In this document: one piece after another, positions 8,005-29,999 of the stretch | How the letters are laid out: every line of letters starts with the position of its first letter | Position numbering within the stretch: the stretch's first letter is position 1 | Source of the DNA: a virus | Length of the DNA: 41,852 nt | IMG/VR virus record: IMGVR_UViG_3300025674_000097 | Location: 1 to 41,852 of that record | Direction: 5' to 3' (one strand) | Notes under the pieces: generated by a model | Seen by the model: only the letters and a program-made list of their open reading frames with translations | Database searches by the model: none | Told to the model about the DNA's origin: nothing | Program-made: the position numbers and the translations under genes

Positions 8005-8376
8005 ATGCAAATTCCACATTCACCTCAGCACTACCTCTTCAACTTAGATACAACAAGTCCAGGAGAGGCAAAGCGAATGTGGAGACGAAAGATAAAAGAT
8101 AAGTGGGATAATCAATGCGCCTATTGTGGAGATAATGAACAACTTACTATTGATCATGTAGTTCCAAGATCAAAAGGTGGAACTGATTTTACTCGAAATG
8201 TTGTATGTGCTTGTCACGATTGTAATCAGGATAAAGGTCATACTCCTTGGGAAGAATGGTATTTTTCTCAGGAGTTTTTTAGCATTGAAAGGTATGAGAA
8301 AATAAAAGAATGGATGAAACCAGATCCACCAACAAATCTCTATATGTATCGTAAAAGAAGAAATAATGCCAGTTGA
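8005..8376 (+). CDS. HNH endonuclease (123 aa), probable homing endonuclease
   Basis: The protein contains one complete HNH zinc-finger nuclease domain: C38-x-x-C41, the catalytic D50-H51, Asn65, C70-x-x-C73 and N74 with K77. The remainder is a short basic N-terminus and a charged C-terminal tail with Arg/Lys (about residues 115-121), plausible for DNA contact. The length of 123 aa is typical for free-standing phage HNH genes. It sits alone between two fibre genes with its own upstream box and a late-type box for the next gene behind it, so it probably inserted there. It could promote gene conversion of the surrounding fibre region. The family is secure; the target is not known. Confidence 0.88.
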
Positions 8377-8439: not shown

Positions 8440-11400
8440 ATGGCAACTCCGATTCGGATAAAAAGGTCAGCCGTACCTGGAAAAAAACCAACTGTAGATC
8501 AACTCCAGCTAGGCGAGTTAGCTGTAAACTTCTATGATGGTAAACTGTTTTTTAAACAAGATCAAGGAAGTGTTGGTGTTGGAACTAGAATTATTGAAGT
8601 TGGCGGTGGAAATAATGTAGGCAAGACAATATATGTAACCTCAAATGGTGATGATGGTAATACTGGATTGAGTGATGCTGATGCAAAAGCATCCATAAAA
8701 TCTGCATCAACAATTGCATTACCTGGTGATACGATTAAGGTTTATCCTGGAACTTATGTAGAAAATAATCCAATTTATTTGCCTGATAATGTTTCTGTTG
8801 AGGGAGCAGAACTTCGCCGTTGTTTAGTTACTCCTAGATATCTTAACCAAGATTTATTTTATGTCGGTGAAGGATGTCATGTAACTGACATAAGTTTTGT
8901 TGGTGGAGAAGCTAGTGATGGAGCTGCTGTAGTATCATATAGACCACTTGCTGGAGTTTCGACTGATAGATTTTTTGATGCTGCTAGATTAATACGAGAA
9001 AATCTAGATTTTATTGCTCAAGAGACTGTAGGATATATTACAAGCACGGATTATAAAAATCCTGCAATTAATATTGATTCTACAAATTGTGCTGATGATA
9101 TTAAGGATGTTTATCGAGCAATATGTCATGATATTACTAGAGGTGGAAATTCTAAATGTATTGGTGCAGGAAAATCATATTTTGATATAAATGGTAATTT
9201 AGATCACATTGTTGGTTTTGGTGCAACAACAATTGATGCATTTATGCATTCTAGACAAATTGTTAGATCAATTATTAACAATGCTACTTGGGCATCTTCG
9301 AAAGGAAGTAATGATTCTGTTAATATTTCATTGGCACAATATGATAAGACAACTGGTATATTAACTGTAACTACTGATGGTGAAAATGGTTTTCTAAAAG
9401 GAAATGCAATAGAATTAGAAGGGTTAGAATTTACTTGTCCTGGAGGATCTGGTATTACGACCACAATATTTCCTGATGGAACATTTGGCGATACTTTCCC
9501 GGTACATTCAGTTTTAAGTTTACCTGCTAATAGTTTTGAAGTAATTGTTGGTGTATCAACGATAGATCACACTTATGTAAGTGGTGGAACAGCAACTTTA
9601 AAGCAAAATTATCAAACAACATATACACAAGTAAAGGATTTATCAATTCAACCAGATTACTTGACTGGATTTAATAATGGAGTTAATGGTTGTAGAAACG
9701 TCGTATCTGCAATTTATACCTGTGTCGGTATTGTTACAGGAATTATACAAAATGGTGTGGATGGATTACCTGCGACAACAGGATTTACTACAACATACCC
9801 TGGAAATTCTGGATCTGGAACTTCAAATAAAGACGAGATTACTGGAGCAACATATAATAAATTAACAGGAATTGTTGATTTATCGTTATCAAATGCTTCT
9901 GATTATAGATCTGGTGATAGAATTGAATTAAGAGATTTAGTGTTCTCTTGTGACTCTGGATCTGGAATTGGAACAACCACAGGATTGTTCCCATCAGGCG
10001 CTTATGGATATGAATTTTCAATTGAAAGAATTAATGCCGATGGAACACTTGCTGTTCAAGTAGGAATGTCTACTCTAGATCATACTTATGTAAGTGGTGG
10101 ATTTATTATTGATAGATCGTTAGATGTATCTTCAGCTACTTATGATAATGCTAGTGGAATTGCTACAATTACTGCTACTGGTTTAAGTGCAAAAATTGGG
10201 CAGTTTATAGAATTAAGAGATCTTGAGTTTTCCTGTGATCCAATATATGTTGGAGTTACTTCTACACTATTCCCTTCAGGAAATAATGGTTATAAATTTA
10301 AAGTAATAGAATCATCAACTGATCAAGTTGTTGTAAATGTTGGTGTTAGCACAATTGTTCATACTTATGTAAGTGGAGGAAAAATATACCCTCCATTTGG
10401 ATCTGGTGTTGGAGTAATTACCAAGGGTCCGTATGTTCGTAACTGCACCAACTTTATTCCAAAGAGTATTGGATCTAAAGTTGATGGGTTCAATGCTGAT
10501 GAAGGAGATTTAATCAATAATATAGGTGTTCAAGGTTCTTATAACGTTGATTCATATACTCAATTTAATCAGGGTGGAATTGGAGTATCAGTTACCAATG
10601 GTGCTTATTGTCAGTTGGTTTCTATTTTCACTATTTGTGATGATACTGCAATTTATTCTGGTCAAGGTGGTCAATGCGATTTAACAAACTCAAACTCTTC
10701 TTTTGGAGTAAGAGGATTAGTTTCTCAAGGAGTTGGTGATCAAACAAGTAAGTGCTCTGATCGTTATACTGCTGAAGCAACTATAACGGCGCCTGTTAGC
10801 ACTGCTGAAGTTGTTTTAACTGGTGTTGGTGATAATCGCCCATATCAAGGTCAAGCAGTTTATTTTGATCAAATTTATAATGTTGTTAGTGAAATTGTCA
10901 TTGATGATCCAGGTTCTGGATATAGCACTCCACCAACTATAACTATTGATGCTCCTACTGGTCCTGGAATTGCAATTCAGGCTCAAGCAACTGCAACAAT
11001 AGATGCTTCTGGTTCTGTTAATGGAATTACGATTCTTGCTGCAGGATCTCAATATATTGGAACGCCAAATGTCTTTGTAAGTGGTGGAAGCCCCTCTACT
11101 CCAGCATCTCTTTCTGCTAGAGTTCAACCAATTTATTATGCTATTGATTCTGCTACTTTACCATCATCTGGTATCACTACAGTCACTTTAGTTCAGACTC
11201 TAAATAATGAAGTAAGTGCAGGAACAACGGCATATTTTTCTCGACAGAGTTTCCAGATTGTAAGCTCTCATTCTTTCCAATATATTGGTGCTGGAAATAC
11301 TATTGAAACTGCATATCCATCTAGAGGTGGAGTTACAATTCAAGAAAATGAAGTAATTAAACTTGACGGTGGTGATATTGCATATACAAGCACAGATCAA

Positions 11401-11532
11401 GCAGGTAACTTTAGAATTGGTGATGGAGTTGTAATTGATCAGCAAACAGGATCTATTTCCGGTGCTGATTATGTGAAGAGTTTATTTACACAGGTAACCC
11501 CATTTATTCTAGCATTAGGAGGTAATGAATAA
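8440..11532 (+). CDS. Large virion structural protein with beta-helix and triplicated domain (1030 aa)
   Basis: The N-terminus (MATPIRIKRS, then GELAVNFYDGKLFFK near residues 27-41) is a docking region I associate with cyanophage tail-fibre or baseplate proteins. Residues about 65-150 have the pattern of a right-handed beta-helix (pectate-lyase-like: TIYVTSNGDDGNTG, then DTIKVYPGTYVEN). A segment of about 75-95 aa recurs three times in the middle (near 300-390, 465-560 and 565-650). Each copy has IEL-x-x-LEFSC or a close variant, Phe-Pro-Ser/Asp-Gly and a terminal HTYVSGG. The last third is beta-rich and ends with IRIGDGVVIDQQTG-like sequence. It is coupled to the next gene (TAATG). It probably forms part of the baseplate-proximal fibre. 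The precise T4 equivalent is unclear. Confidence 0.78.
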   Translation: MATPIRIKRSAVPGKKPTVDQLQLGELAVNFYDGKLFFKQDQGSVGVGTRIIEVGGGNNVGKTIYVTSNGDDGNTGLSDADAKASIKSASTIALPGDTIKVYPGTYVENNPIYLPDNVSVEGAELRRCLVTPRYLNQDLFYVGEGCHVTDISFVGGEASDGAAVVSYRPLAGVSTDRFFDAARLIRENLDFIAQETVGYITSTDYKNPAINIDSTNCADDIKDVYRAICHDITRGGNSKCIGAGKSYFDINGNLDHIVGFGATTIDAFMHSRQIVRSIINNATWASSKGSNDSVNISLAQYDKTTGILTVTTDGENGFLKGNAIELEGLEFTCPGGSGITTTIFPDGTFGDTFPVHSVLSLPANSFEVIVGVSTIDHTYVSGGTATLKQNYQTTYTQVKDLSIQPDYLTGFNNGVNGCRNVVSAIYTCVGIVTGIIQNGVDGLPATTGFTTTYPGNSGSGTSNKDEITGATYNKLTGIVDLSLSNASDYRSGDRIELRDLVFSCDSGSGIGTTTGLFPSGAYGYEFSIERINADGTLAVQVGMSTLDHTYVSGGFIIDRSLDVSSATYDNASGIATITATGLSAKIGQFIELRDLEFSCDPIYVGVTSTLFPSGNNGYKFKVIESSTDQVVVNVGVSTIVHTYVSGGKIYPPFGSGVGVITKGPYVRNCTNFIPKSIGSKVDGFNADEGDLINNIGVQGSYNVDSYTQFNQGGIGVSVTNGAYCQLVSIFTICDDTAIYSGQGGQCDLTNSNSSFGVRGLVSQGVGDQTSKCSDRYTAEATITAPVSTAEVVLTGVGDNRPYQGQAVYFDQIYNVVSEIVIDDPGSGYSTPPTITIDAPTGPGIAIQAQATATIDASGSVNGITILAAGSQYIGTPNVFVSGGSPSTPASLSARVQPIYYAIDSATLPSSGITTVTLVQTLNNEVSAGTTAYFSRQSFQIVSSHSFQYIGAGNTIETAYPSRGGVTIQENEVIKLDGGDIAYTSTDQAGNFRIGDGVVIDQQTGSISGADYVKSLFTQVTPFILALGGNE

Positions 11533-11876
11533 TGGCAATTGCAGCAGCAGCAGTTAACGTATTCCAGACAGTTACGTCTGTTGTGGGAACAAGTACAGTC
11601 GGAATTTATACTGCACCAGTAGGATATACTGGAGTAGTTCTTTTGGCACAAGTAACTAATACTGGTGGATCTACCAGTAGTATTAGTTTTGGTCATCGTC
11701 GTGATGGAGTAGACACTGAAATTGTAAAAAATTTAGCAATACCATCTAGTGATACTGCTAATCTTCTTCCTGGAAAATTAGTTGTTGAAACAGGAGATGT
11801 GTTAACAATTGTTGGTGATAATTTTGCTGGTGAACTCAAGTTTTTGACAAGTATTCTAGAAACCTCTAATCTCTAA
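11532..11876 (+). CDS. Small virion structural protein (114 aa)
   Basis: The start ATG overlaps the previous stop as TAATG. The 114-aa product begins MAIAAAAVNVFQ and is a compact beta-sandwich by pattern (alternating hydrophobic strands such as GVVLLAQVTN, LVVETGDVLTIVG and LKFLTSIL), with no Cys and no catalytic motif. Proteins of this form sit behind the large N-terminally docked fibre gene in cyanophages and are probably attachment or collar proteins for fibre trimers. Its tight coupling to the 1030-aa gene and its position before the 1389-aa fibre suggest a connector role. Confidence 0.68.
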   Translation: MAIAAAAVNVFQTVTSVVGTSTVGIYTAPVGYTGVVLLAQVTNTGGSTSSISFGHRRDGVDTEIVKNLAIPSSDTANLLPGKLVVETGDVLTIVGDNFAGELKFLTSILETSNL

Positions 11877-16091: not shown

Positions 16092-19000
16092 TTGGCTGAT
16101 CAGAATTTTAGAGTAAAGCGCGGTCTAGAAATTGGCGTAGGTGGCACTGTATTACTTGCAGAAAGTGGTGGTAATATTGGTATTAATAGTGTTTCTCCAA
16201 CATCTACGGTTGATATTGTTGGAAATGTAAAAATTGATGGTGATTTAACTGTAGGTGATGTTTCTTTTTCTGATGGAGCTTTAAATAGTTTAAATGTTAC
16301 TGGTTTATCAACATTTAATGATGATGTAACGTTTACTGAAGGAGTAAATAATATTGGGATTGGAACTACAAATCCCTTACAATATATTCAAATTGGAACT
16401 GCAAATACTTTAGGTGTTAATTCGAATGGTGATGTTTTAGTAATAACATCTGATCTTAGTGTTGGTATTGGAACTACAAACCCAACAGCAAAATTGGATG
16501 TTGATGGTGATGTTGATATTAGCGAAAGTGTTGATATTGGTAGTAATTTAAGTGTTTCTGGAATTTCTACTTTAGGAGTTACTACTGCTACAGATTTAAC
16601 AGCGCAGCAAATTAATGTTTCTGGAGCCTCAACTTTAGGAACAGTTCAAGTTTCTTCTGGTATTATTACTGCAACATCTGGTGTTGTAACTTATTATGGT
16701 GATGGAAGTTTCTTAACAGGTGTTGCTGCTGCAGTATTTACTTTAGATGATGATGAGAATTTGCAAGCAGGAACTGGTGCTGGAGGAACTTATAGCGCTG
16801 CATCTGGTAGTGCTTGTTGCAATGTTTCAATTGGATATTCTGCAAACTATTGTATCACTCCAAATGCTACTGGGGATAATAATATATTCTTAGGATCTAA
16901 GTCTGGATTCCTTGGGAATGGAGAGAGTAGTGGAATTGGAACTGATAATATTTTTGTTGGAAGATGTGCTGGATATTATACAGAAAATGGCTCTGATTTC
17001 CAGAATATTGCTATTGGTGCAGAAGCTGGATACTGTTTAAGGTGTAGTAGTATTGAGAGTGGAAATTGTAATGTATATATTGGTGTTTGTGCTGGTAGAC
17101 TGAGCCATACTGATAGTAATGTTGCTATTGGATATAAAGCTGGTTGTCAAGCATGTCCTGCTAATGGAGGAGCAAATGTTTTCTTAGGTGGACATGCTGG
17201 TGAAAACCATGGAACTAATACTTTAAGTATTTTTATTGGATGTGATGCAGGATGTAATACACAATGTTGCACTAATAATGGTTACTTTATTGGTTATAAA
17301 GCAGGACGTAATGCTTGTAAAGTTAGTGAAAGCACTTTTATAGGGTGTTACGCTGGATCAGAATCCCTTTGTCAAAGAGGTTCAATTTTTATTGGTAATG
17401 CTACTGGTGGTGATGCTAACTATGGGGCTTGTAATATATTTTTGGGAAACGAGTCTGGAAGACAAACTACATGCTCAGACTTCAACATCTATGTGGGTCA
17501 ACAGTCTGGATGTAATGATTGTTATGGTTGTTATAATACATTCCTTGGTTATATTGCAGGAAGAGATCATGGTCTCAATAGCACAACTGGTGGAAACTTT
17601 AATAACTTTCTTGGATATGGGGCTGGTCATAAATCATGTATTGCTTGTAATAATAACTGGATAGGATGTGAAGCGGGTGCTTATGCTAGATGCGGACATT
17701 ATAATAACTTCTTTGGAAATGCTGCTGGATATAGTGGAACTAACTCCAAATATAATAATATATTTGGTGATCAAGCAGGTCGCAATTTAGGAGCTTCTTG
17801 TTATAATATTTTTATGGGTCAATGTGCTGGTTATGGTGATTCCAACATAGGTAACAATAGTTTTTATAGTAATATTGCCATAGGTTGTAAGGCTGGATTT
17901 AATCTTTCAGATAGTTTTGATAATATTTTTCTCGGTAGGTGTGCTGGATTTTCTAATACTTCTGGGGAAAGAAATGTTGCTATAGGAGAATGTGCTCTTG
18001 CTACAAATACTTGCAATGTAGGAAATATTACTATTGGATATGAATCTGGATTCTGCTTAGCAAATAAATTAGGCAATGATGCAAATACTATAATTGGTTA
18101 TTCTGCAGTTTCGAATCCTAATGCTTCGAATGGATGTGTTAGCTACTCAACAGTTATTGGTTATCTTGCTGGTAGCAATTTAGGTTGTGCAAAAGAATCT
18201 ACTATAATTGGTTTCTGTGCAGGAATTACTGCTTGCACATGCAAATCTGTTATGATTGGATGTCTTGCTGGTAGCGATTCTCGCGGACAAGAGAATGTAA
18301 TGTTAGGTTCTCTTGCTGGTTGTGCAAATTGTGGCAGTTATAATATTTTATTTGGTAAGCAGGCGGGAGCACTTTTACAATCATCTTCTTGCCATAATGT
18401 AGCTATTGGATACTTAGCAGGTATTTGTTGTGGTGGTGATTGTAATGTTTTACTTGGTAAAGAAGCAGGATTTTGTAATAAAACTGATCATAATGTTGCA
18501 ATTGGTGCTTTAGCACTTTATGGAGGATCTGGTGGGGTTACTGGAACTCATAACATAGCGATTGGTGAAAGTGCAGGATTTCGCAACACCTCTGGAGCTT
18601 ATAATAATTTCTTTGGTAAAAGTGCTGGACACAATAACATTACTGGAAGTTATAATAACTTCTTTGGAACACTGGCAGGGTGCTGCAACGATAGTGGAAA
18701 TCATAATAACTTCTTTGGTTCTTACGCAGGTCTATGCAACACCACTGGGTGTTATAATAACTTCCTTGGGCGTTATGCAGGAGTCAGCAACACCACTGGA
18801 TTTGATAATAACTTCATTGGTAATCAAGCAGGACGCTCCAATTCCACTGGATGTTATAATAACTTCATTGGTCGTTATGCAGGATGCGACAACAGCACTG
18901 GATCTTTGAATAACTTCATTGGTCAAAGAGCAGGAAGATGCAACACCATTGGAGGTAATAATAACTTCATTGGTAATCAAGCAGGATGCTCCAACACCAC

Positions 19001-22000
19001 TGGATGTCATAATACCTTCATTGGTAATCAAGCAGGAAATCTCAACCAAACTAATAGTCACTCAATCGCTATTGGTAAGGAAGCAGGATTTTGGAACCAA
19101 GGCGACAATAATATTTACTTAGGTGAATGCGCCGGTAAAAGCTCCAGTAGATCTGCTTGCACTACTGGATCCAATAACGTAGCAATAGGTAAGAGTTCTG
19201 GTGCAAATATTACTACTGGAATTGTTAATAACTTCATTGGTTTATATGCAGGATACTGCAACACCACTGGATGTTCTAATAATTTCTTTGGTCGTTGTGC
19301 AGGATTTCGCAACACCACTGGAGATTATAATACCTTCATTGGTGGTGAAGCAGGATTTGGCAACACCACTGGAGGTTTTAATAACTTCATAGGTCAAAGA
19401 GCAGGATACTGCAACACCACTGGAGGTTCAAATAACTTCATTGGTGCTAATGCAGGATACTGCAACACCACTGGAAGTCAAAATAACTTCATTGGTTCTC
19501 AAGTAGGAAAATTCAACACTACTGGAAGTTTTAATACCTTCTTAGGTCATAGAGCAGGATGCAATAACACCACTGGAAGTAATAATAACTTCATTGGTCA
19601 ATGTGCAGCATACTGCAACGAAACCAATAGCAACTCAATCGCCATTGGTTGTCAAGCAGGATTCTGGAACCGAGGTGACAATAATATTTACTTAGGTGAA
19701 AACGCTGGTAGGAGCTTAACTAGAACTGCTAACACTACTGGAACTGATAACGTAGCAATAGGTAAGAGTTCTGGTGCAAATATTACTACTGGAGGTTGTA
19801 ATACCTTCATTGGTCAATGTGCAGGATACTATAACACCAGTGGATGTTATAATAACTTCATTGGTTGTGGTGCAGGAAAATGCAACACCACTGGATCTCT
19901 TAATAACTTCATAGGTCTATGTGCAGGAGGAAGCAACGACACTGGATGTAATAATAACTTCTTTGGAACTAATGCAGGAAAAACCAACGACAGTGGAAGT
20001 AATAATAACTTCTTTGGTAGTCAAGCAGGATTCTGCAACAGTATTGGATGTAATAATAACTTCATTGGAAACCAAGCAGGACAAAACAATGACACTGGAA
20101 GTAATAATAACTTCTTTGGTCAACTAGCAGGATTCTCCAACACCACTGGATGTTATAATAACTTCTTTGGTCGAAATGCAGGAAGATCCAACACCACTGG
20201 AAGTGATAATAACTTCTTTGGTAATCAAACAGGATACAACAACACCTCTGGAGGTTGTAATACCTTCATTGGATCATGTGCAGGATACTGCAACACCACT
20301 GGATGTTATAATAACTTCTTTGGTGATAATGCAGGAAGATTTAATATCAGTGGATGTTATAATAACTTCTTTGGTAATCAAGCAGGATACTGTAACCAAA
20401 CCAATAGCAACTCAATCGCCATTGGTAATGAAGCAGGATACTGGAACCGAGGTGACAACAATATTTACTTAGGTGAAAACGCTGGTAGAAGCTCCAGTAG
20501 ATCTGATTACACTACTGGATCCAATAACGTAGCGATAGGTAAGAGTTCTGGTGCAAATATTACCACTGCATATCATAATATCTTTATTGGTCGATGTGCA
20601 GGATACTCCAACACCACTGGAAATTATAATAACTTCTTAGGTCGAAATGCAGGAAGATGCAACACCATTGGAGGTAATAATAACTTCTTAGGTGACTATG
20701 CAGGATCCTCCAATATCACTGGAGGTTATAATAACTTCTTAGGTAATCAAGCAGGAACAAATAACGAAAGTGGATCTTATAATAACTTCTTTGGTTTATT
20801 TGCAGGATATTGCAACACCACTGGATCTTGTAATAACTTCATTGGCTATCTATCAGGATTCTCTAACACCACTGGATCCCATAATAACTTCTTAGGTTTC
20901 TGTGCAGGATATGAGAACAGAACTGGATGTCATAATACCTTCATTGGTTGTCGAGCAGGAAGTATAAACACCACTGGATCCCATAATAACTTCCTTGGTT
21001 TATTTGCAGGATACTGCAACACTGATGGAAATTATAATAACTTCTTTGGTAATAGTGCAGGATACTGCAATACCGGAGATAATAATAACTTCATTGGTTC
21101 TTCTGCAGGTCTATGCAACACCACTGGATCTTGTAATAACTTCTTTGGTAATCGTGCAGGATGCGACAACACTACTGGATGTTATAATAACTTCATTGGT
21201 AGTTGTGCAGGAAGAAACAACACCACTGGATGTTATAATAACTTTTTAGGTCGAGACGCAGGATACAGCAACACTACTGGATGTTATAATAACTTCATTG
21301 GTTTTTCTGCAGGATACTGCAACACCACTGGAGATAAAAATAACTTTATTGGTGATGGAGCAGGAAGATTCACCACCACTGGATCTTGTAATAACTTCTT
21401 TGGTGCGTGTGCAGGATACAAGAGCTGCTTGGGAAATGCTAATAACTTCTTTGGTAATAAAGCAGGATTCTACAATAATGGAGATTATAATAACTTCATT
21501 GGATATTTTGCAGGATTATGCAACACCTCTGGATGTTATAATAACTTCTTTGGTTATCAAGCAGGATGCAACAACACCACTGGATGTGGTAATATCTTCA
21601 TTGGTCGAAATGCAGGAGAGGACAATTGCACTGGAAATTTAAACGTTGTTATTGGTGCAAGAAATCTTCCTATTATAAATGGAAGTAATCAATTAGCAAT
21701 TGGTGCTGGATCCACTAATTGGATTACTGGTGATAGTTCTTATGATGTTACAATGCCAGGAAATCTTTCTGCTCTTTCTGTAACATCAACTTCTGATAGA
21801 AGTAAGAAGAAGAACATTAGACCAATTGAAAATGCATCCGAACTTGTGAAGCAACTTGAAGGTGTTAGATTTGATTGGGTAGATAATGATAAACCATCAA
21901 TTGGATTGGTTGCACAAGACGTTGAACAAATCATTCCAGAAGTTGTAAATACTGCAAGTGATGGAACAAAATCAGTATCTTATGGAAATTTGGTTGGATT

Positions 22001-22055
22001 GTTGGTTGAAGCAATCAAGGATCTGCAAAATCAAGTTAACGAACTGAGAGGTTGA
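16092..22055 (+). CDS. Giant tail fibre with 17-residue repeats and S74 self-cleaving chaperone domain (1987 aa)
   Basis: Translation probably starts at TTG 16092: the N-terminus reads (M)ADQNFRVKRGLEIGVGG, a docking sequence typical of cyanophage fibres, no in-frame ATG lies nearby, and AGGGGAT precedes at good spacing. Two or three GIGTTNP segments follow (to about residue 170). Irregular Cys-rich FLG/AIG-x-x-AG repeats run from about 235 to 820. A near-perfect array of 51 units of 16-17 residues with three inserted 55-residue blocks covers about 821-1850. The C-terminal 88 residues are a peptidase S74 intramolecular chaperone with Ser at about 1901 in Ser-Asp-Arg-Ser-Lys-Lys, keeping the Ser and the Lys five residues on that carry out self-cleavage. 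It should trimerise, cleave itself and give a very long, repetitive, Asn-, Gly- and Cys-rich shaft. Confidence 0.88.
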   Translation: MADQNFRVKRGLEIGVGGTVLLAESGGNIGINSVSPTSTVDIVGNVKIDGDLTVGDVSFSDGALNSLNVTGLSTFNDDVTFTEGVNNIGIGTTNPLQYIQIGTANTLGVNSNGDVLVITSDLSVGIGTTNPTAKLDVDGDVDISESVDIGSNLSVSGISTLGVTTATDLTAQQINVSGASTLGTVQVSSGIITATSGVVTYYGDGSFLTGVAAAVFTLDDDENLQAGTGAGGTYSAASGSACCNVSIGYSANYCITPNATGDNNIFLGSKSGFLGNGESSGIGTDNIFVGRCAGYYTENGSDFQNIAIGAEAGYCLRCSSIESGNCNVYIGVCAGRLSHTDSNVAIGYKAGCQACPANGGANVFLGGHAGENHGTNTLSIFIGCDAGCNTQCCTNNGYFIGYKAGRNACKVSESTFIGCYAGSESLCQRGSIFIGNATGGDANYGACNIFLGNESGRQTTCSDFNIYVGQQSGCNDCYGCYNTFLGYIAGRDHGLNSTTGGNFNNFLGYGAGHKSCIACNNNWIGCEAGAYARCGHYNNFFGNAAGYSGTNSKYNNIFGDQAGRNLGASCYNIFMGQCAGYGDSNIGNNSFYSNIAIGCKAGFNLSDSFDNIFLGRCAGFSNTSGERNVAIGECALATNTCNVGNITIGYESGFCLANKLGNDANTIIGYSAVSNPNASNGCVSYSTVIGYLAGSNLGCAKESTIIGFCAGITACTCKSVMIGCLAGSDSRGQENVMLGSLAGCANCGSYNILFGKQAGALLQSSSCHNVAIGYLAGICCGGDCNVLLGKEAGFCNKTDHNVAIGALALYGGSGGVTGTHNIAIGESAGFRNTSGAYNNFFGKSAGHNNITGSYNNFFGTLAGCCNDSGNHNNFFGSYAGLCNTTGCYNNFLGRYAGVSNTTGFDNNFIGNQAGRSNSTGCYNNFIGRYAGCDNSTGSLNNFIGQRAGRCNTIGGNNNFIGNQAGCSNTTGCHNTFIGNQAGNLNQTNSHSIAIGKEAGFWNQGDNNIYLGECAGKSSSRSACTTGSNNVAIGKSSGANITTGIVNNFIGLYAGYCNTTGCSNNFFGRCAGFRNTTGDYNTFIGGEAGFGNTTGGFNNFIGQRAGYCNTTGGSNNFIGANAGYCNTTGSQNNFIGSQVGKFNTTGSFNTFLGHRAGCNNTTGSNNNFIGQCAAYCNETNSNSIAIGCQAGFWNRGDNNIYLGENAGRSLTRTANTTGTDNVAIGKSSGANITTGGCNTFIGQCAGYYNTSGCYNNFIGCGAGKCNTTGSLNNFIGLCAGGSNDTGCNNNFFGTNAGKTNDSGSNNNFFGSQAGFCNSIGCNNNFIGNQAGQNNDTGSNNNFFGQLAGFSNTTGCYNNFFGRNAGRSNTTGSDNNFFGNQTGYNNTSGGCNTFIGSCAGYCNTTGCYNNFFGDNAGRFNISGCYNNFFGNQAGYCNQTNSNSIAIGNEAGYWNRGDNNIYLGENAGRSSSRSDYTTGSNNVAIGKSSGANITTAYHNIFIGRCAGYSNTTGNYNNFLGRNAGRCNTIGGNNNFLGDYAGSSNITGGYNNFLGNQAGTNNESGSYNNFFGLFAGYCNTTGSCNNFIGYLSGFSNTTGSHNNFLGFCAGYENRTGCHNTFIGCRAGSINTTGSHNNFLGLFAGYCNTDGNYNNFFGNSAGYCNTGDNNNFIGSSAGLCNTTGSCNNFFGNRAGCDNTTGCYNNFIGSCAGRNNTTGCYNNFLGRDAGYSNTTGCYNNFIGFSAGYCNTTGDKNNFIGDGAGRFTTTGSCNNFFGACAGYKSCLGNANNFFGNKAGFYNNGDYNNFIGYFAGLCNTSGCYNNFFGYQAGCNNTTGCGNIFIGRNAGEDNCTGNLNVVIGARNLPIINGSNQLAIGAGSTNWITGDSSYDVTMPGNLSALSVTSTSDRSKKKNIRPIENASELVKQLEGVRFDWVDNDKPSIGLVAQDVEQIIPEVVNTASDGTKSVSYGNLVGLLVEAIKDLQNQVNELRG
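18552..21641 (+). repeat. 3090-bp array of 51-bp repeats (51 units plus three 165-bp blocks)
   Basis: The unit encodes NN-F-[IFL]-G-x-x-AG-x-x-NTTG-x-x and is also conserved in DNA (a core like aacttcattggt, then gcaggat, then aacaccactgga). Reading the translation, I count 10 units, a 55-residue block starting SIAIG, 8 units, a second such block, 12 units, a third block, then 21 units. Forty-nine units are 17 residues and two are 16. The total is 1030 residues, which matches the span exactly. The block starts (ctcaatcgc at 19061, 19634 and 20411) are 573 and 777 bases apart, a difference of exactly four units. Confidence 0.92.
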
Positions 22056-22059
22056 AAAA

Positions 22060-23298
22060 ATGACTTTTAAAGTTGGAGTTACAACTGTTATTGATTATGG
22101 AACTTATGTTCATGAGTCTTTTTCTAGAGTTGGAGTTGGAACTACTGAGAATAAAAAAATACTTGCTTCTGATGGTGCTGCTAATGATTTTTTTGGATAC
22201 TCAGTCGCAGTAGGATCCGGTAGGATCGTTGCTGGTGCTTATGGTCATAATGTTGGTTCTAATGCTGATCAAGGATCAGCATACATCTTTGATCTTAATG
22301 GTAACCAATTAGGAATTATTACTGCTTCTGATGGTGCTGCTGATGATCAATTTGGATTCTCAGTCGCAGTAGGAAACGGTAGAATCGTTATTGGTGCTCG
22401 TAATGATGATATTGGTTCTAATCTTAATCAAGGATCAGCATACATCTTTGACCTTGATGGCAATCAATTAGGAATTATTACTGCTTCTAATGGTGCTGCT
22501 GATGATCGTTTTGGATCGTCAGTTGCAGTAGGATGTGGTAGGATCGTTGTTGGTGCTTATCTTGATGATGTTGGTTCTAATGTTAATCAGGGATCGGCAT
22601 ACGTCTTTGATCTTGATGGTAATCAATTAGGAATTATTACTGCTTCTGATGGTGCTAATGGTGATTCTTTTGGATATTCAGTTGCAGTAGGAAATGGAAG
22701 AATTGTTGTTGGTGCTCCTTTTCATGAGGTTGGTTCTAATAATAATCAAGGATCAGCATACATCTTTGACCTAAATGGTAATCAATTAGGAATTATTACT
22801 GCTTCTGATGGTGCTGCTGATGATCAATTTGGATTCTCAGTTGCATTAGGAAGCGGTAGGATCGTTGTTAGCTCTCCTTTTAATGATATTGGATCTAATA
22901 ATAATCAAGGATCAGCATACATCTTTGACCTAAATGGTAATCAATTAGGAATTATTACTGCTTCTGATGGTGCTGCTAATGATAATTTTGGAAGATCAGT
23001 TGCAGTAGGATCCAGTAAGATCGTTGTTGGTGCTTATGCTGATGATGATAATGGTGGTGCATCTGGATCAGCATACATTTATGATCTAGATGGAACCAAT
23101 GAAGTTAAAATAACTGCTTCTGATGGTGCTGCTGTTGACTGGTTTGGATACTCAGTTGCAGCAGGATCTGGTAGGATCGTTGTTGGTGCTTCTCGTGATG
23201 ATGACAATGGTAATGAATCTGGATCAGCATACATTTTTAATTTACCACAAGATCAAAGTTCATATTTTGATGAGATCTTGGAAACCTATAAATACTAG
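22060..23298 (+). CDS. Seven-bladed FG-GAP beta-propeller protein, copy 1 (412 aa)
   Basis: The body consists of seven tandem repeats of about 53 residues with the consensus ITASDGAADDQFG-x-SVAVG, then GRIVVGA, then GSAYIFDL. Phe-Gly and Gly-Ala in each unit are the hallmark of integrin-type FG-GAP repeats, and seven units would close a seven-bladed propeller. Asp-rich loops (such as DDDNG) may bind calcium. The N-terminus MTFKVGVTTVIDYG resembles the docking peptide MAIKVAGTTVI of the 608-aa fibre at 30044, so the protein could attach to a fibre. It begins five bases after the giant fibre gene and two near-identical relatives follow. A host-binding adhesin role is inferred. Confidence 0.85.
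   Translation: MTFKVGVTTVIDYGTYVHESFSRVGVGTTENKKILASDGAANDFFGYSVAVGSGRIVAGAYGHNVGSNADQGSAYIFDLNGNQLGIITASDGAADDQFGFSVAVGNGRIVIGARNDDIGSNLNQGSAYIFDLDGNQLGIITASNGAADDRFGSSVAVGCGRIVVGAYLDDVGSNVNQGSAYVFDLDGNQLGIITASDGANGDSFGYSVAVGNGRIVVGAPFHEVGSNNNQGSAYIFDLNGNQLGIITASDGAADDQFGFSVALGSGRIVVSSPFNDIGSNNNQGSAYIFDLNGNQLGIITASDGAANDNFGRSVAVGSSKIVVGAYADDDNGGASGSAYIYDLDGTNEVKITASDGAAVDWFGYSVAAGSGRIVVGASRDDDNGNESGSAYIFNLPQDQSSYFDEILETYKY
23287..23294 (+). promoter_or_regulatory. Perfect late-promoter box TATAAATA
   Basis: TATAAATA overlaps the last codons of propeller copy 1 and lies 17 bases before the ATG of copy 2, so copies 2 and 3 may be expressed separately from copy 1. Confidence 0.55.
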
Positions 23299-23311
23299 AA
23301 AAATGTGAAGT

Positions 23312-24541
23312 ATGTCTTTTGCATTTAAAACGAATAATAGTATTATCGTTGATAACAATTCTTTTTTTATAGGAACAACTGGGTTTAGTACGAATATCTA
23401 TTCTTCTGAGGTTGGCATTATAACTGCTTCTGATGGTGCTGCTGGGGATGATTTTGGAGCCTCAGTTGCAGTAGGATCCGGTAAGATCGTTGTTGGTGCT
23501 CGTAATGATGTTGTTGGTTCTAATGCTGATCAAGGATCAGCATACATTTATGATATCAATGCTGGTATTGGAACTACTGAGAATAAAAAAATACTTGCTT
23601 CTGATGGTGCTGCTAATGATCATTTTGGAGACTCAGTTGCAGCAGGATCCGGTAGGATCGTTGTTGGTGCTTCTCAAAATAATAATCAAGGATCAGCATA
23701 CATCTTTGATCTTAATGGCAATCAACTAGGAATTATTACTGCTTCTGATGTTGCTGCTGGTGGTGAATTTGGATACTCAGTTGCAGTAGGATCCGGTAGG
23801 ATCGTTGTTGGAGCTCCTTCTGATGATGTTGGTTCTAATAATGCTCAAGGATCAGCATACATCTTTGACCTTAATGGTAATCAACTAGGAATTATTACTG
23901 CTTCTGATGGTGCTGCTGGTGATTTTTTTGGATTCTCAGTTGCAGTAGGATCCGGTAGGATCGTTGTTGGTGCTATTGCTGATGATGTTGGTTCTAATGT
24001 TGCTCAAGGATCAGCATACATCTTTGACCTAAATGGTAACCAATTAGGAATTATTACTGCTTCTGATGGTAGTGCTACAGATCTTTTTGGAAACTCAGTC
24101 GCAGTGGGATGTGGTAGGATCGTTGTTGGTGCTTATAGTCATGATGTTGGTTCTAATGGTAATCAGGGATCAGCATACATCTTTGACCTAAATGGTAATC
24201 AATTAGGAATTATTACTGCTTCTGATGGTAATCCTGGTGATAATTTTGGAATCTCAGTTGCAGTAGGAAACGGTAGAATCGTTGTTGGTGCTCGTTATGA
24301 TGATATTGGTTCTAATAATAATCAAGGATCAGCATACATCTTTGATCTTGATGGCAATCAACTAGGAATTATTACTGCTTCTAATGGTGCTGCTAGTGAT
24401 TATTTTGGACAATCAGTCGCAGTAGGATCCGGTAAAATTGTTGTTGGTTCTAGAGATGTTGCAGTTAATACTCAAGGATCAGCTTACATTTATGATACTC
24501 CAAAACAAACACATTTTTTAGATCAACTAGATGGGAGATAA
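23312..24541 (+). CDS. Seven-bladed FG-GAP beta-propeller protein, copy 2 (409 aa)
   Basis: Seven FG-GAP repeats again fill the protein after a different N-terminus (MSFAFKTNNSIIVDNNSFFI). Nearly all blades are of the type ending QGSAYIFDLNGNQLGI with loops containing Gly-Ser-Asn. Between blades 1 and 2 lies NAGIGTTENKKI, the same segment that precedes blade 1 in copy 1, which places the copies in a shifted register. The DNA similarity to copies 1 and 3 is high, so recombination between them is likely. A perfect late box lies 17 bases upstream. The role is the same as for copy 1: probably an alternative or additional adhesin head. Confidence 0.84.
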   Translation: MSFAFKTNNSIIVDNNSFFIGTTGFSTNIYSSEVGIITASDGAAGDDFGASVAVGSGKIVVGARNDVVGSNADQGSAYIYDINAGIGTTENKKILASDGAANDHFGDSVAAGSGRIVVGASQNNNQGSAYIFDLNGNQLGIITASDVAAGGEFGYSVAVGSGRIVVGAPSDDVGSNNAQGSAYIFDLNGNQLGIITASDGAAGDFFGFSVAVGSGRIVVGAIADDVGSNVAQGSAYIFDLNGNQLGIITASDGSATDLFGNSVAVGCGRIVVGAYSHDVGSNGNQGSAYIFDLNGNQLGIITASDGNPGDNFGISVAVGNGRIVVGARYDDIGSNNNQGSAYIFDLDGNQLGIITASNGAASDYFGQSVAVGSGKIVVGSRDVAVNTQGSAYIYDTPKQTHFLDQLDGR

Positions 24542-24544
24542 TAA

Positions 24545-25783
24545 ATGACTTTCAAAGTTGGTGTAGGAACTGCTATCAGAGCAGCATATACTGATAATGG
24601 TGTTCCTTATATGTGGGAAAGTGGTGATGTAACTACTATTCCATCAAATGAGTTTAAAATTAAAGCATCTGATGCTGCTGATGATGATTATTTTGGAAAC
24701 TCAGTTGCAGTAGGATCCGGTAGGATCGTTGTTGGTGCTTATGCTGATGATGATAATGGTGCTGGTTCTGGATCAGCATACATTTATAATATCAATGCTG
24801 GTATTGGAACTACTGAGAATAAAAAAATACTTGCTTCTGATGGTGCTGGTGGTGATAATTTTGGATGGTCAGTCGCAGTAGGATCCGGTAGGATTGTTGT
24901 TGGTGCTTATGGTGATGATTATAATGGTAATTTAACTGGATCAGCATACATCTTTGACCTAAATGGTAACCAATTAGGAATTATTACTGCCTCTGATGGT
25001 ACTGCTGGTGATTATTTTGGATGGTCAGTCGCAGTAGGATCCGGTAAAATTGTTGTTGGTGCATTTTTTGATGATGATAATGGTAATGCCTCTGGATCAG
25101 CATACATTTATGATCTAGATGGAACCAATGAAGTTAAAATCAGAGCATCTGATGGTGCTGCTAGTGATTTTTTTGGATTTTCAGTCGCAGTAGGATCCGG
25201 TAAAATTGTTGTTGGTTCTTATGGTGATGATGATAATGGTAGTGCCTCTGGATCAGCATACATTTATGATCTAGATGGAACCAATGAAGTTAAAATAACT
25301 GCTTCTGATAATTTTGCTGGTGATCAATTTGGAAGATCAGTCGCAGTAGGATCCGGTAGGATCGTTGTTGGTGCTCCTTTTGATAATGATAATGGTAGTG
25401 ATTCTGGTTCAGCATACATTTATAATCTAGATGGAACCAATGAAGTTAAAATAACTGCTTCTGATGGTTCTGCTGATGATAAATTTGGATGGCCAGTCGC
25501 AGTAGGATCCGGTAGGATCGTTGTTGGTTGTAGTGGGGATGTTAATTCCAATAAAGGAGCAGCATACATTTATGATCTAGATGGCAATCAACTAGAAATT
25601 ATTACTGCCTCTAATGGTGCTTCTGGTGATAATTTTGGATACTCAGTCGCAGCAGGATCCGGTAAGATCGTTGTTGGTGCTCGTCTTGATAATATTGGTT
25701 TTAATAATCAAGGATCAGCATACATTTATGATACTCCACAGGTTTACACTCTTTATGATGCAATTGATCTTCAATATGGATAA
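24545..25783 (+). CDS. Seven-bladed FG-GAP beta-propeller protein, copy 3 (412 aa)
   Basis: It starts MTFKVGVGTAIRAAYTDNGV, so it shares the first residues with copy 1, and then has seven FG-GAP blades. Most blades are of a second type with DDDNG-x-x-SGSAYIYDLDG and Thr-Asn-Glu-Val-Lys-Ile, suggesting stronger calcium-binding loops. NAGIGTTENKKI lies between blades 1 and 2 as in copy 2. It follows copy 2 after three bases and was probably made by duplication followed by blade exchange. No membrane span or signal peptide is seen. An adhesin role is inferred from the fold and the locus. Confidence 0.84.
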   Translation: MTFKVGVGTAIRAAYTDNGVPYMWESGDVTTIPSNEFKIKASDAADDDYFGNSVAVGSGRIVVGAYADDDNGAGSGSAYIYNINAGIGTTENKKILASDGAGGDNFGWSVAVGSGRIVVGAYGDDYNGNLTGSAYIFDLNGNQLGIITASDGTAGDYFGWSVAVGSGKIVVGAFFDDDNGNASGSAYIYDLDGTNEVKIRASDGAASDFFGFSVAVGSGKIVVGSYGDDDNGSASGSAYIYDLDGTNEVKITASDNFAGDQFGRSVAVGSGRIVVGAPFDNDNGSDSGSAYIYNLDGTNEVKITASDGSADDKFGWPVAVGSGRIVVGCSGDVNSNKGAAYIYDLDGNQLEIITASNGASGDNFGYSVAAGSGKIVVGARLDNIGFNNQGSAYIYDTPQVYTLYDAIDLQYG

Positions 25784-25838: not shown

Positions 25839-28800
25839 ATGACTAACAACAGAGAGCTCTCTCAATTTGGGTCGGTTTTAAACTTTGATGAAGACAGTAA
25901 CTTTATAGGAATTAATACCCTAGTTTCTGAGACTCAGTATACTGTTGGAATTGGAACGTCAATTTTATTTTTTGGTTCTACTGGTATTTTAAGTGCTACT
26001 GCAATTTATGCAAACGGTGAAAATATTATTGATATCATTGATGCAAAAGCAGCAGAAGCAGCAGCTTTTGCAACAACAGCTGGATTCTCTACTTATGCTT
26101 CTTTTGCAGGATTTGCAACTGATGCAGGTATTTCGACAAATATAAAAGGAGGAGATACTGGAGATATACCATATCAATCTGCTGCAGATACAACAACATT
26201 TTTAGACGCTAGCTCAGCATCAACTGGTCAAATTATTCTTTGGAGTGGATCTGCTCCAATATGGAGTGATGTAAGTGCTGCTTCTGGATCTTTTGGTGGT
26301 ATTACAATCCAAGAAGATGGATCTACTGTTGGAACAGCGGATAGCGTTTCAATTGTTAATTTTGGAAGTGGATTAATTGCAAGTTCTTCAGGAATTGGTG
26401 CAACAATTATTGCACAAGTTGGTTTAGGATCGGATACGACTGGTGATTATGTCGATTCTATTACAGGAACTGCTGGTCAAATTGATGTAACTGGTGGAAC
26501 TGGAGAAGGTTCAACACCAACAATTTCACTAGCCAATAATACATCAATACCTGGAAATCCGACAATTGCTGGAGATTTGCAGGTCAATTCAAATTTGAAT
26601 GTATCTGGAAATATTACTCTTGGTGGAACAACTGCTTTTGTCACCGAAACAATTCTGAGAACTACAAACCCAGATGTTATTGTCGGATATACGACAAATA
26701 TTGATGGTGATGATGCGTCTACAGATATTACTGCTAATAGTGGTGGTATTGCCATTGCTTCTACAGAAGGAACACCTTTAGTTGATTTAGTTATTGCTGG
26801 AATTGAAACTCTTCCAGTAACATATAAAAAGATACAATGGTATCGAGCTGGAGCATTTAGTGGATTAGGAACTGATGCATTTTTAATTAACTATGCTCTT
26901 GGTGTTGGAACTACTGAATTCCAAAGTGGAGTAAGGTTGGCAGTTGGTTCTGGCATTACAATGTCAGATACAAATATTTCTGCAACAAGTTTTAATGGAA
27001 CTACTTTTACGGGAACTACATTTGATGGAACTACATTTACTGGAACAGCAAATGCAGTAAGTAATAGTTTAACAAAGGGAAATTATGTTACTTATAGTTC
27101 TGGAACAACATATAATGGATCTGCTGCGATAACAATTGGTGTTGATGCAACTTCTGCCAATACAGGAGATAAAATAGTTGTTCGTGACTCTGGTGGTAAT
27201 TTTAGTGCAGGAGTAATTACTGCTACTACTTTTGATGGAAATGCAGGAACTGCAACTTCACTAGCAACTGCTAGAAATATTGGTGGAGTATCATTTGACG
27301 GAACTGCTGATATTGATCTTCCTGGTGTTAATACTTCTGGTAATCAAGATACATCTGGAAATGCTGCAACAGCAACGGCTTTAGAAACTGCTAGAAATAT
27401 TGGTGGAGTATCATTTGACGGAACAGGAGACATTGATCTTCCTGGTGTTAATACTTCTGGTAATCAAGATACATCTGGAAATGCTGCAACAGCAACAAAT
27501 GCTGGATTAGCAACAGATTTAAGTATTAATGCTACAAATGAGTTAGTACTACAAACAGGAAATAATGCTACTTCTACGTTAACAAACGGAACGAGCGGGT
27601 ATCTTCTTCAAAGTAATGGATCTGGAAGTTCTCCAACATGGGTAAATTCTGCCACTTTCTCAGTAAGTTCTGCTTCTACAACTACAGATGTTATTGGTGG
27701 AATTGCTTCTGTTACACAACTTTCTGTTTCTGGAGTTTCTACTTTAGGAACAGTTGAAGTTTCTTCTGGTATTATTACTGCAGCATCAGGTATTGTAACT
27801 TATTATGGTGATGGTCAATATCTGACTGGATTGGGATTCAAAGAAGATTCTGATTTCAATTTATTTGCAGGTTCAAATTCCGGTGGTGGATATGATCCTG
27901 CAGTAAATCAAGGAAGATTTAACGTTGCAATTGGATATTCTGCCGCATATAATTTAAATGAAGGTGATAGTAACGTATTTTTAGGAAGATATAGTGGATT
28001 CTGTAATACTGATGGATGTTATAACGTATTCTCTGGGCATCAATCTGGTTATAGAGTAACTACTGGAAATAATAATATTTCTTTAGGATTCTGTGCAGGA
28101 TATGGTTCTGTAGATTCAACAGGATCTTATAATATATTCCTTGGAAATTGTGCAGCATATTCAATTACTTCTGGTGCAAGTAATATTGTTTTAGGAAATT
28201 GCGCAGGTCATAATTTAACAACTGGAGATTCCAACGTTTTTATTGGATGTAAATCTGGATATAATCATACTGCTTTCGGAAATAATGTTTTCTTAGGAAC
28301 TCAAGCAGGTGAATGCTCCAATGCATCTCAAATAAATGTTCTTATTGGTGCGGCAGCAGGTCAAGGCATTAATGATGGATCCAGGAATGTAATGCTAGGA
28401 TCAAGATCTGGTACAAATATCAATAATGGATCTTCAAATACTTTCGTTGGTGATGATTCTGGATGTCTATCTGTTGATGCTTGTTTTAATACATTTTTAG
28501 GTAGACAATCTGGTTTACGTAATACCAGTGGTAATTCTAATGTTTTCTTGGGTTGTGGTGCAGGATGTTTAAATTGCACTGGAAGTAATAATGTATATCT
28601 AGGTAATAATGGTGGATCACTTAATTTCCCAATTTTAAATGGAAGTAATCAACTTCTCGTTGGTAGTGGATCCACTGCTTGGATTAATGGTAATTGTGAT
28701 TACAATGTTGGTATTAATTCCACTGCTCCGCAAGAAAAACTAAGTGTTATCGGAAAAATACATCTTGATAATACATGTGGAAGTGTTTTCTTAGGGCAAG

Positions 28801-29999
28801 GAAATCATCAATCTGGAACTTCTGGATCATTTGATGTTGCGATTGGATGCAATGCAATGAGATGTTTCAATGGAACATCAAGTTGTTCCGTTGCTATTGG
28901 ATATCAAAGTATGTGTTGTGTTCAAGCATCATCCAATAGCATTGCTATAGGTAATGGCGCCGCGATATGCAGTTTCTGTAATAGCGATTCTATTTTCATG
29001 GGAACTTGTGTAGGTGGTGATTGCGTAAGTAATACTTGCGGATCAATTTACATAGGTGCTTGTGCTGGTCGTGGAGATACTGGATGCTCTACTAACACCG
29101 GAACTAATAATATATTCCTCGGAACGTTAACTGGATCTAATAATTTCGTTTCTGTATCAAATGTTTTCATTGGTGATTGTGCTGGAGCAGGTAGTGCAAA
29201 TTCAATAAACAACGGTAATTGTAATATTTTCGTTGGAAAACAGGCTGGATGCAACATTTGCACGGGTGATCATAATATTGCTCTTGGGACGTTGTCTGGA
29301 TGTGGAACTTCAAGTGGATGGGCGGGATCTAATAATATCTTCCTTGGAAATAATTCTGGAAGACAGATTGATGAAGGAAATTACAATATTGCAATTGGCA
29401 GATGTGCTGGATATACGAATCAAGATGGGTGTTGCAATACTTTCCTTGGATTTGATGCTGGTCTTTTAACAACGGGAAGTCGAAATACATTCCTGGGTTC
29501 ATGTGCAGGAAAAGATCATACCAGTGGATCTGGTAATGTAATTATTGGAGACCAGATGAAGCAAGCCTGGTCTAAAACTGGAGATCATCAACTAGTTGTT
29601 GGTGCTGGGGGAACTTCTTGGATTGAAGGAGATTCTTCATTTAATGTTGGTATTGGAACTGCCTTACCTACAACAAAACTTCAAGTCATTGGTGAAGTTA
29701 CTGCAACTGATTTCAATACAACGTCGGATCGAAATCTAAAGACAAATATTGCAACTATTAGTGATCCAATTTTGAAGATAAATCAACTTCGTGGTGTATC
29801 TTTTAATTGGTTAGAAAATTCCAAACCAGCGATGGGCGTTATTGCAGATGAAGTTCAAGAAATTATTCCAGAAATTGTAAATGATACTGATCCAAAAACT
29901 GTTAATTATAATGGTTTAATCGGTCTTCTGATTGAAGTTGTTAAAGATCAACAATCTCAAATTAATGAACTGAGAGATCAACTTTCCAAATTAAACTGA
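25839..29999 (+). CDS. Long tail fibre with FDG repeats, FLG/AG repeats and S74 domain (1386 aa)
   Basis: The N-terminus (MTNNRELSQFGSVLNF) is of the cyanophage fibre type. A stretch with ARNIGGVSFDGTADIDLPGV occurs twice (about residues 480-550), matching the phage tail-fibre repeat seen in T4-type long fibres. From about residue 690 to 950 and 980 to 1250 there are FLG-x-x-AG/SG repeats related to those of the 1987-aa fibre, Cys-rich but less regular. The C-terminal 92 residues form a peptidase S74 chaperone with TSDRNLKTNI near 1295-1304, keeping the catalytic Ser and the Lys five residues on. The protein should trimerise and be trimmed by self-cleavage. It is probably a receptor-binding fibre alternative to or partnered with the giant one. 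Confidence 0.88.
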   Translation: MTNNRELSQFGSVLNFDEDSNFIGINTLVSETQYTVGIGTSILFFGSTGILSATAIYANGENIIDIIDAKAAEAAAFATTAGFSTYASFAGFATDAGISTNIKGGDTGDIPYQSAADTTTFLDASSASTGQIILWSGSAPIWSDVSAASGSFGGITIQEDGSTVGTADSVSIVNFGSGLIASSSGIGATIIAQVGLGSDTTGDYVDSITGTAGQIDVTGGTGEGSTPTISLANNTSIPGNPTIAGDLQVNSNLNVSGNITLGGTTAFVTETILRTTNPDVIVGYTTNIDGDDASTDITANSGGIAIASTEGTPLVDLVIAGIETLPVTYKKIQWYRAGAFSGLGTDAFLINYALGVGTTEFQSGVRLAVGSGITMSDTNISATSFNGTTFTGTTFDGTTFTGTANAVSNSLTKGNYVTYSSGTTYNGSAAITIGVDATSANTGDKIVVRDSGGNFSAGVITATTFDGNAGTATSLATARNIGGVSFDGTADIDLPGVNTSGNQDTSGNAATATALETARNIGGVSFDGTGDIDLPGVNTSGNQDTSGNAATATNAGLATDLSINATNELVLQTGNNATSTLTNGTSGYLLQSNGSGSSPTWVNSATFSVSSASTTTDVIGGIASVTQLSVSGVSTLGTVEVSSGIITAASGIVTYYGDGQYLTGLGFKEDSDFNLFAGSNSGGGYDPAVNQGRFNVAIGYSAAYNLNEGDSNVFLGRYSGFCNTDGCYNVFSGHQSGYRVTTGNNNISLGFCAGYGSVDSTGSYNIFLGNCAAYSITSGASNIVLGNCAGHNLTTGDSNVFIGCKSGYNHTAFGNNVFLGTQAGECSNASQINVLIGAAAGQGINDGSRNVMLGSRSGTNINNGSSNTFVGDDSGCLSVDACFNTFLGRQSGLRNTSGNSNVFLGCGAGCLNCTGSNNVYLGNNGGSLNFPILNGSNQLLVGSGSTAWINGNCDYNVGINSTAPQEKLSVIGKIHLDNTCGSVFLGQGNHQSGTSGSFDVAIGCNAMRCFNGTSSCSVAIGYQSMCCVQASSNSIAIGNGAAICSFCNSDSIFMGTCVGGDCVSNTCGSIYIGACAGRGDTGCSTNTGTNNIFLGTLTGSNNFVSVSNVFIGDCAGAGSANSINNGNCNIFVGKQAGCNICTGDHNIALGTLSGCGTSSGWAGSNNIFLGNNSGRQIDEGNYNIAIGRCAGYTNQDGCCNTFLGFDAGLLTTGSRNTFLGSCAGKDHTSGSGNVIIGDQMKQAWSKTGDHQLVVGAGGTSWIEGDSSFNVGIGTALPTTKLQVIGEVTATDFNTTSDRNLKTNIATISDPILKINQLRGVSFNWLENSKPAMGVIADEVQEIIPEIVNDTDPKTVNYNGLIGLLIEVVKDQQSQINELRDQLSKLN
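27266..27496 (+). repeat. Tandem 120-bp repeat in the fibre gene
   Basis: A 111-bp segment at 27266-27376 is repeated with few differences at 27386-27496, giving a 120-bp (40-residue) period. It encodes the ARNIGGVSFDG fibre repeat. Confidence 0.88.

Follow-up and report, generated by a model that had tools for sequence, protein, structure and literature searches.

Three tandem genes in a 41,852 nt stretch of viral DNA (IMG/VR record IMGVR_UViG_3300025674_000097; hereafter the window) encode proteins predicted to fold into seven-bladed beta-propellers, and these are probably receptor-binding heads of a cyanomyovirus tail or fibre apparatus, with ends fixed for docking and blades that are diversified and can be exchanged. 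The computational analysis established the predicted fold, conservation of the gene trio, three classes of protein termini, loss of orthology among blades, a single variable face and rapid turnover beside a conserved fibre. From these we infer that the propellers are present in the virion, dock to a fibre or the baseplate and bind molecules of the host surface.

The genes are intact open reading frames (ORFs) on the + strand, each with seven FG-GAP_2 blades: gene A (22060..23298, 412 aa, terminal class beta), gene B (23312..24541, 409 aa, class gamma) and gene C (24545..25783, 412 aa, class alpha). As an earlier reading of the DNA alone (the sequence-only reading) had reported, they lie between fibre genes. 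The upstream fibre (16092..22055, + strand, 1987 aa, with a C-terminal S74 intramolecular chaperone domain, PF13884, E=4.4e-14) ends 5 bp before gene A, and the downstream fibre (25839..29999, + strand, 1386 aa, C-terminal S74 domain, PF13884, E=1.3e-13) starts 56 bp after gene C. The trio and the surrounding 21 kb were 100% identical in four other IMG/VR contigs (five contigs in all), so the repeat array is not an artefact of a single assembly; identical trios also recurred across other sample sets.

Repeats and predicted fold

The FG-GAP_2 profile (PF14312) matched each protein seven times, with whole-protein E-values of 2e-101, 1.3e-85 and 1.2e-105 for genes A, B and C, respectively, values at which the seven-repeat match is not due to chance. 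The corresponding scores were 332, 282 and 346 bits against a curated cut-off of 23. Successive repeats were spaced by 53, 53, 53, 53, 53 and 52 residues in gene A, by 57, 48, 53, 53, 53 and 53 in gene B and by 56, 52, 52, 52, 52 and 50 in gene C. The earlier count of exactly seven repeats of about 53 residues in each of three tandem genes was therefore borne out, with a spacing range of 48–57. The FG-GAP label itself held for FG-GAP_2 and not for the classical FG-GAP profile (PF01839), which gave 0 matches in the window proteins searched. No enzyme family was matched by the three proteins in the Pfam search.

AlphaFold2 models were built for genes A and C from alignments of 27 rows. Both gave the closed seven-bladed ring expected from the sequence-only reading, with a predicted local distance difference test score (pLDDT) of 89.2 and a predicted template modelling score (pTM) of 0.88 for gene A, and values of 88.5 and 0.90 for gene C. 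The strand pattern of the two models corresponds to seven four-stranded blades, in which blade 7 itself supplies three strands and an extra N-terminal strand lies ahead of blade 1 (residues 30–34 of gene A by DSSP strand order of the model, 22147..22161, + strand). Judging from the order of the strands, this N-terminal strand would be the fourth strand of blade 7 and close the ring as a velcro. A short C-terminal helix sits behind blade 7 in both modelled rings, and parts of the first 25 residues are of low confidence. The gene B protein aligns over its full length, with 64% identity to A and 62–64% to C, the modelled rings being those of A and C.

The best Foldseek matches in the PDB were integrin alpha heads (E 6e-18, query-normalised TM 0.69). 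A profile search against PDB sequences also returned integrin alphas alone, weakly (E 0.1), and phmmer with a single-sequence query found no match in the PDB. The top viral structure match was a cyanophage S-TIM5 ‘virion structural protein’ (E 1.8e-34). The integrin alpha-subunit head thus shares a seven-bladed FG-GAP-type propeller with the window proteins as their top PDB fold match, but the sequence match is weak and the window proteins have neither the DxDxDG loops nor a beta subunit. In integrins, the calcium sites sit in the AB turns. The DxDxDG calcium motif occurred 0 times in the three proteins and the AB turns of the gene A model are about two residues long; the possible calcium dependence raised by the sequence-only reading is thus not supported in its integrin-type form.

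Conserved ends and exchanged blades

Profile-guided scans of IMG/VR yielded 73 loci, referred to by L-numbers as locus labels. Three tandem propeller genes were present in at least eight distinct uncultured phages, the window and seven others (L010, L012, L013, L017, L022, L027 and L032), with seven blades in every gene (24 genes, 168 blades). Whole-contig tallies of about 20–23 blades in nine contigs, some of which are copies of one phage, fit three rings per phage. Six of the eight trio phages had an S74 gene no more than 1.6 kb from the trio, as did the variant locus L073, which has three diverged propeller genes; the location beside fibres therefore recurs in other phages. In a second variant locus, L093, an S74 fibre abuts a class-alpha propeller at the contig end. 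Among matching phage records (50,697 searched, with the regions around matches read), the trio had no counterpart, and single or fused copies were found instead.

Each trio comprises one member apiece of three terminal classes. Class alpha has the N-terminal motif G[IVE]P[YF][ML][WY]xxGD and the C-terminal motif TPxVxTPYDxxD, class beta has HESF-like and YxDxIxxxY-like motifs, and class gamma has FFIG-like and HxLDxLD-like motifs at the N- and C-terminus, respectively. In gene A, the class beta motif DYGTYVHESF (22093..22122), a putative docking tail, falls in a region of low pLDDT (residues 12–25), and the C-terminus NLPQDQSSYFDEILETYKY (23239..23295) includes a predicted helix at 399–411. 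Gene B has the class gamma motif IIVDNNSFFIGTT (23342..23380), also a putative docking tail, and the C-terminus DTPKQTHFLDQLDGR (24494..24538). Gene C has the class alpha motif GVPYMWESGD (24599..24628) as the third putative docking tail; its C-terminus DTPQVYTLYDAIDLQYG (25730..25780) carries a predicted helix at 403–411. All six features are on the + strand. The start MTFKVGV, previously described as docking-like, is not the docking signature, a part that falls to the class-specific N- and C-terminal motifs, themselves putative docking ends. MTFKVGV begins genes A and C alone; gene B begins MSFAFKT.

Because the classes were first assigned by eye, an independent test was run in which the best three-gene pairing between two phages was computed separately from the N-termini and the C-termini. 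The two pairings coincided for 20 of the 21 pairs of phages, where chance would give 3.5 (permutation p ~0.001), noting that the pairs are not independent (L010 and L022 are relatives) and that two C-termini were imperfectly cut. The bodies tracked class in just seven of the 21 pairs. Between phages, bodies of the same class were 62.5% identical and those of different classes 62.1%, against 67.9% for bodies from one phage, and the body tree grouped by phage (p 0.001) and not by class (p 0.92).

At the level of single blades, the DNA nearest neighbour was in the same phage for 138 of the 168, and for 94 of these 138 it was in another gene. Orthologous positions among blades 2–6 were no closer than random pairs in nearly all phage pairs; for the inner blades 2–6 of the close pair L010/L022 the values were 0.780 (orthologous) and 0.777 (random). 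Paralogues within a phage shared exact runs of 27–114 nt, mostly offset by whole blades, and between-phage exact runs were usually <20 nt. Such whole-blade-shifted runs are characteristic of blades undergoing ectopic recombination or gene conversion. Recurrence of haplotypes between close phages was discarded as proof of whole-blade transfer, since none was seen for L010/L022 and the shifted paralogue runs are better evidence. One locus departed from the three-class set: at L041:7431-12301, four seven-bladed propeller genes lie in tandem, and their C-termini sort into two class pairs that do not match the alpha, beta and gamma set.

The variable face and competing explanations

Seven of the eight most variable blade positions in the window were in the DA or BC loops (hypergeometric P ~0.001), in agreement with the earlier statement that the genes differ mainly in loops. 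Over all 168 blades, the variable positions were 7, 9 and 12 (DA loop) and 26, 27, 33 and 34 (BC loop), and the FG residues, strands B and C, and the AB and CD turns were much more conserved. In propeller topology, the DA and BC loops share one face. Tyr, Arg, Trp and Phe were frequent at positions 9 and 12, and the combination of residues at 9, 12, 26 and 27 was distinct in all 21 blades of the window.

The close pair L010 and L022 was compared in detail. The proportion of nonsynonymous differences (pN) was 0.005–0.018 for the small proteins upstream and the start of the adjacent fibre (0.005 for the latter), 0.15–0.19 for the propeller bodies, 0 for the propeller C-termini and 0.03–0.075 for downstream genes. 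Position 12 differed between the two phages in all 21 blades and position 9 in 20 of them, and F10 never changed. In the trio-adjacent fibre, DNA identity was 97.5% across the first 870 bases and 93% across the remaining aligned part, where lengths differ. Another fibre, farther upstream, had a DNA identity of just 69%, which shows that variability among tail proteins is not confined to the propellers. Separately, position 18 in the AB turn (e.g. gene A residue 106) alternated between Ser, Cys, Asn and Asp across the 168 blades and was changed in 81% of the L010/L022 blades, though the bottom face is otherwise conserved.

Because bacterial FG-GAP_2 blades share the variable positions of the phage blades, the selection test used the six most variable bacterial positions, chosen independently of the phage data. 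Nonsynonymous divergence (dN) at these positions was 1.9–6.3 times the synonymous divergence (dS) at other positions in all eight trio phages (window 4.0). Positions chosen from the phages gave similar ratios, with bootstrap intervals >1. In the window, the proportion of synonymous differences (pS) at variable codons was flat (0.245 versus 0.221) while pN was 0.56. No reverse transcriptase (PF00078) was found in the eight propeller-bearing contigs, which may be incomplete, and the codons at variable sites were diverse; both results weigh tentatively against a diversity-generating retroelement.

The explanation that we favour is that the three paralogous, integrin-alpha-like propellers would work as separate receptor-binding heads. 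The flexible class-specific N-terminal tail and the short class-specific C-terminal helix would dock each ring at its own fixed site on the particle, and since the three ends differ, they would point to three different sites rather than to equivalent sites on one threefold fibre. The DA/BC-loop face of all seven blades would form the recognition surface contacting the host, where the target may be a surface molecule, most likely a glycan or lipopolysaccharide (LPS). Ectopic recombination and gene conversion would move blades among the three genes, and diversifying selection would keep the face residues different, the face being renewed while the fibre shaft stays constant. A virion location for the trio is suggested indirectly, by gene position, by the annotation of S-TIM relatives as virion structural proteins and by fusions in baseplate wedge and structural proteins. 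The ‘swappable receptor-binding heads’ of the sequence-only reading thus fared well as regards swapping, with three conserved terminal classes and blades exchanged and diversified on one face, and the head role is a proposal.

More tentatively, and at a little short of an even chance, the trio may represent a previously undescribed, repertoire-type recognition system of cyanophages. Each particle would carry three, sometimes four, propeller adhesins held at their own sites by conserved ends and drawing on one pool of about 21 blades. Recombination would reshuffle these interchangeable blades and their one face would be diversified, so that the host-binding surfaces are rebuilt with no reverse transcriptase and an unchanged fibre shaft. 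Host recognition by cyanomyoviruses is poorly resolved, the fibres being long, repetitive and hard to assign, and the cassette narrows the candidates for binding proteins to a few, with a face predicted to the residue. If binding were confirmed, this would be an adhesin repertoire built from recombining repeat units in a fixed ring, in triplicate, with a logic comparable to that of other repeat-based recognition proteins and a natural model for engineered binding scaffolds.

Several observations weigh against these proposals. The 313 bacterial FG-GAP_2 blades examined were variable at the same positions, which makes the variable face in part a trait of the family and no proof of phage-specific selection; a face unique to phages is ruled out. 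In seven phages, all but the window, pS was raised at variable codons, and local recombination or mutation may therefore contribute to dN. Some face haplotypes recurred in L013 and L012. The nearest S74 gene in L017 was 5.5 kb from the trio, none was present in the partial stretches examined of L032 and L041, and no cultured phage with the trio turned up in the searches.

It is unlikely, but the best of the alternatives, that the propellers serve as clamps or decoration on the tail, baseplate or fibres, with the face a tolerant surface that drifts as blades are shuffled. The shared variability of bacterial family members fits this, as do relatives inside giant baseplate wedge proteins, the use of seven-bladed propellers as structural cores elsewhere (e.g. 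the SU10 nozzle) and the class-specific ends, which are compatible with clamping or decoration. However, drift predicts equality at most, and dN at the face exceeded dS elsewhere in 8 of 8 phages; the framework and opposite face are conserved, and the adjacent fibre shaft is nearly unchanged between L010 and L022. Carbohydrate-active or lectin-like enzyme heads, with the variable face as the substrate site for processing surface polysaccharides, are very improbable: propeller folds do include glycan-degrading enzymes, which the phi11 receptor-binding propeller resembles (PMC4901313), but the nearest folds here are integrin alpha heads and not enzymes, Pfam gave no enzyme family, and the face residues change in nearly every blade, unlike a catalytic centre. 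Equally improbable are secreted or intracellular host-takeover proteins lying in the fibre region by chance. Vibrio phage nt-1 and S-TIM66 do each have a lone FG-GAP gene away from the tail cluster, but the relatives in S-TIM66 and S-TIM5 bear the annotation of virion structural proteins, propeller genes repeatedly lie close to S74 fibres and other relatives are fused to structural proteins.

Relatives and neighbouring genes

Among the closest known relatives are free FG-GAP_2 propellers of about 400 aa in S-TIM5, S-TIM61, S-TIM66 and nt-1. The S-TIM proteins have seven blades, show 41–48% identity and are annotated ‘virion structural protein’. Unlike the trio, these are single genes away from fibres and without the three terminal classes. 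FG-GAP_2 propellers also occur in tail proteins of T4-like cyanophages (S-MbCM6 T4-GC_108, S-H9-1 and the IMG/VR loci L034, L043 and L046), but there the propeller is fused into a giant baseplate or structural protein, usually as one ring; some of these fused relatives are part of baseplate wedge proteins. The nearest bacterial relatives found were from planctomycetes, Marinicella and others, at ≤45% identity and none cyanobacterial, and an origin from a cyanobacterial host was rejected.

In T-even phages, the gp38-type tip adhesin is a separate variable adhesin gene, in single copy, beside a conserved fibre. The trio resembles it by analogy of working and not by membership, the folds being unrelated and gp38 single copy. 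Propellers are known in phage host-recognition proteins at the virion periphery: Gp45, the receptor-binding protein of Staphylococcus phage phi11, has a five-bladed propeller platform in which an N-terminal strand closes the ring, PRD1 P2 has five blades, and PhiKZ gp131C, possibly a further case, has seven, its function being unconfirmed (PMC4901313). In these, a single propeller is embedded in a multidomain polypeptide, whereas the trio consists of three free-standing paralogues that have exchanged blades. Contractile injection systems are reported to carry beta-propeller lectins with shafts of collagen type (PMC12923769). The open-access literature searched, outside which most subscription papers lie, yielded no description of such FG-GAP cassettes from cyanophages and no relevant paper on FG-GAP proteins in phage tails. 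Of the earlier suggestion of an undescribed recognition system, the part that stands is the three-gene arrangement, which seems undescribed; phage receptor-binding propellers and single cyanophage FG-GAP_2 propellers are already known.

Giant proteins of ~2,600–4,200 aa with 25–30 FG-GAP_2 blades, apparently several rings per chain, were encoded at L044:2801-15508, L070:2-10630 and L048:2-7894. Matches in BFVD placed integrin-like FG-GAP propellers also in giant algal and amoebal viruses, some in collagen-repeat proteins, which suggests that aquatic viruses have used the propeller scaffold repeatedly.

The gene content of the window is that of a cyanophage-like myovirus, with psbA, transaldolase, a Nol-like carbamoyltransferase, PhoH and several fibre genes. 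The best phage matches of its psbA were Synechococcus phages, which suggests Synechococcus as the host, and the host is probably a cyanobacterium. A candidate T4-type late promoter, TATAAATA, near gene B (23287) was dropped, the window holding 6 copies versus 4.8 expected.

Three trio phages have, between propeller genes, an ORF of about 200 aa whose start resembles MYARIDESGNVIEFP (L012:12454-13044, L013:8177-8776 and L017:9290-9910); it matches phrog_1604/2618, of unknown function. Around the L013 trio are three similar 105-aa ORFs (6246-6563, 6596-6913 and 11260-11580); two of the three were compared and both match phrog_7802, also of unknown function. In the window, the upstream fibre (16092-22055) contains ~60 YadA-head-like repeats of roughly 17 residues (NNFIGxxAGxxNTTG), each with a variable two-residue slot, and 107 cysteines. 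Directly ahead of the fibre genes is an HNH endonuclease ORF (8005-8376), possibly a homing endonuclease adjoining the host-range region.

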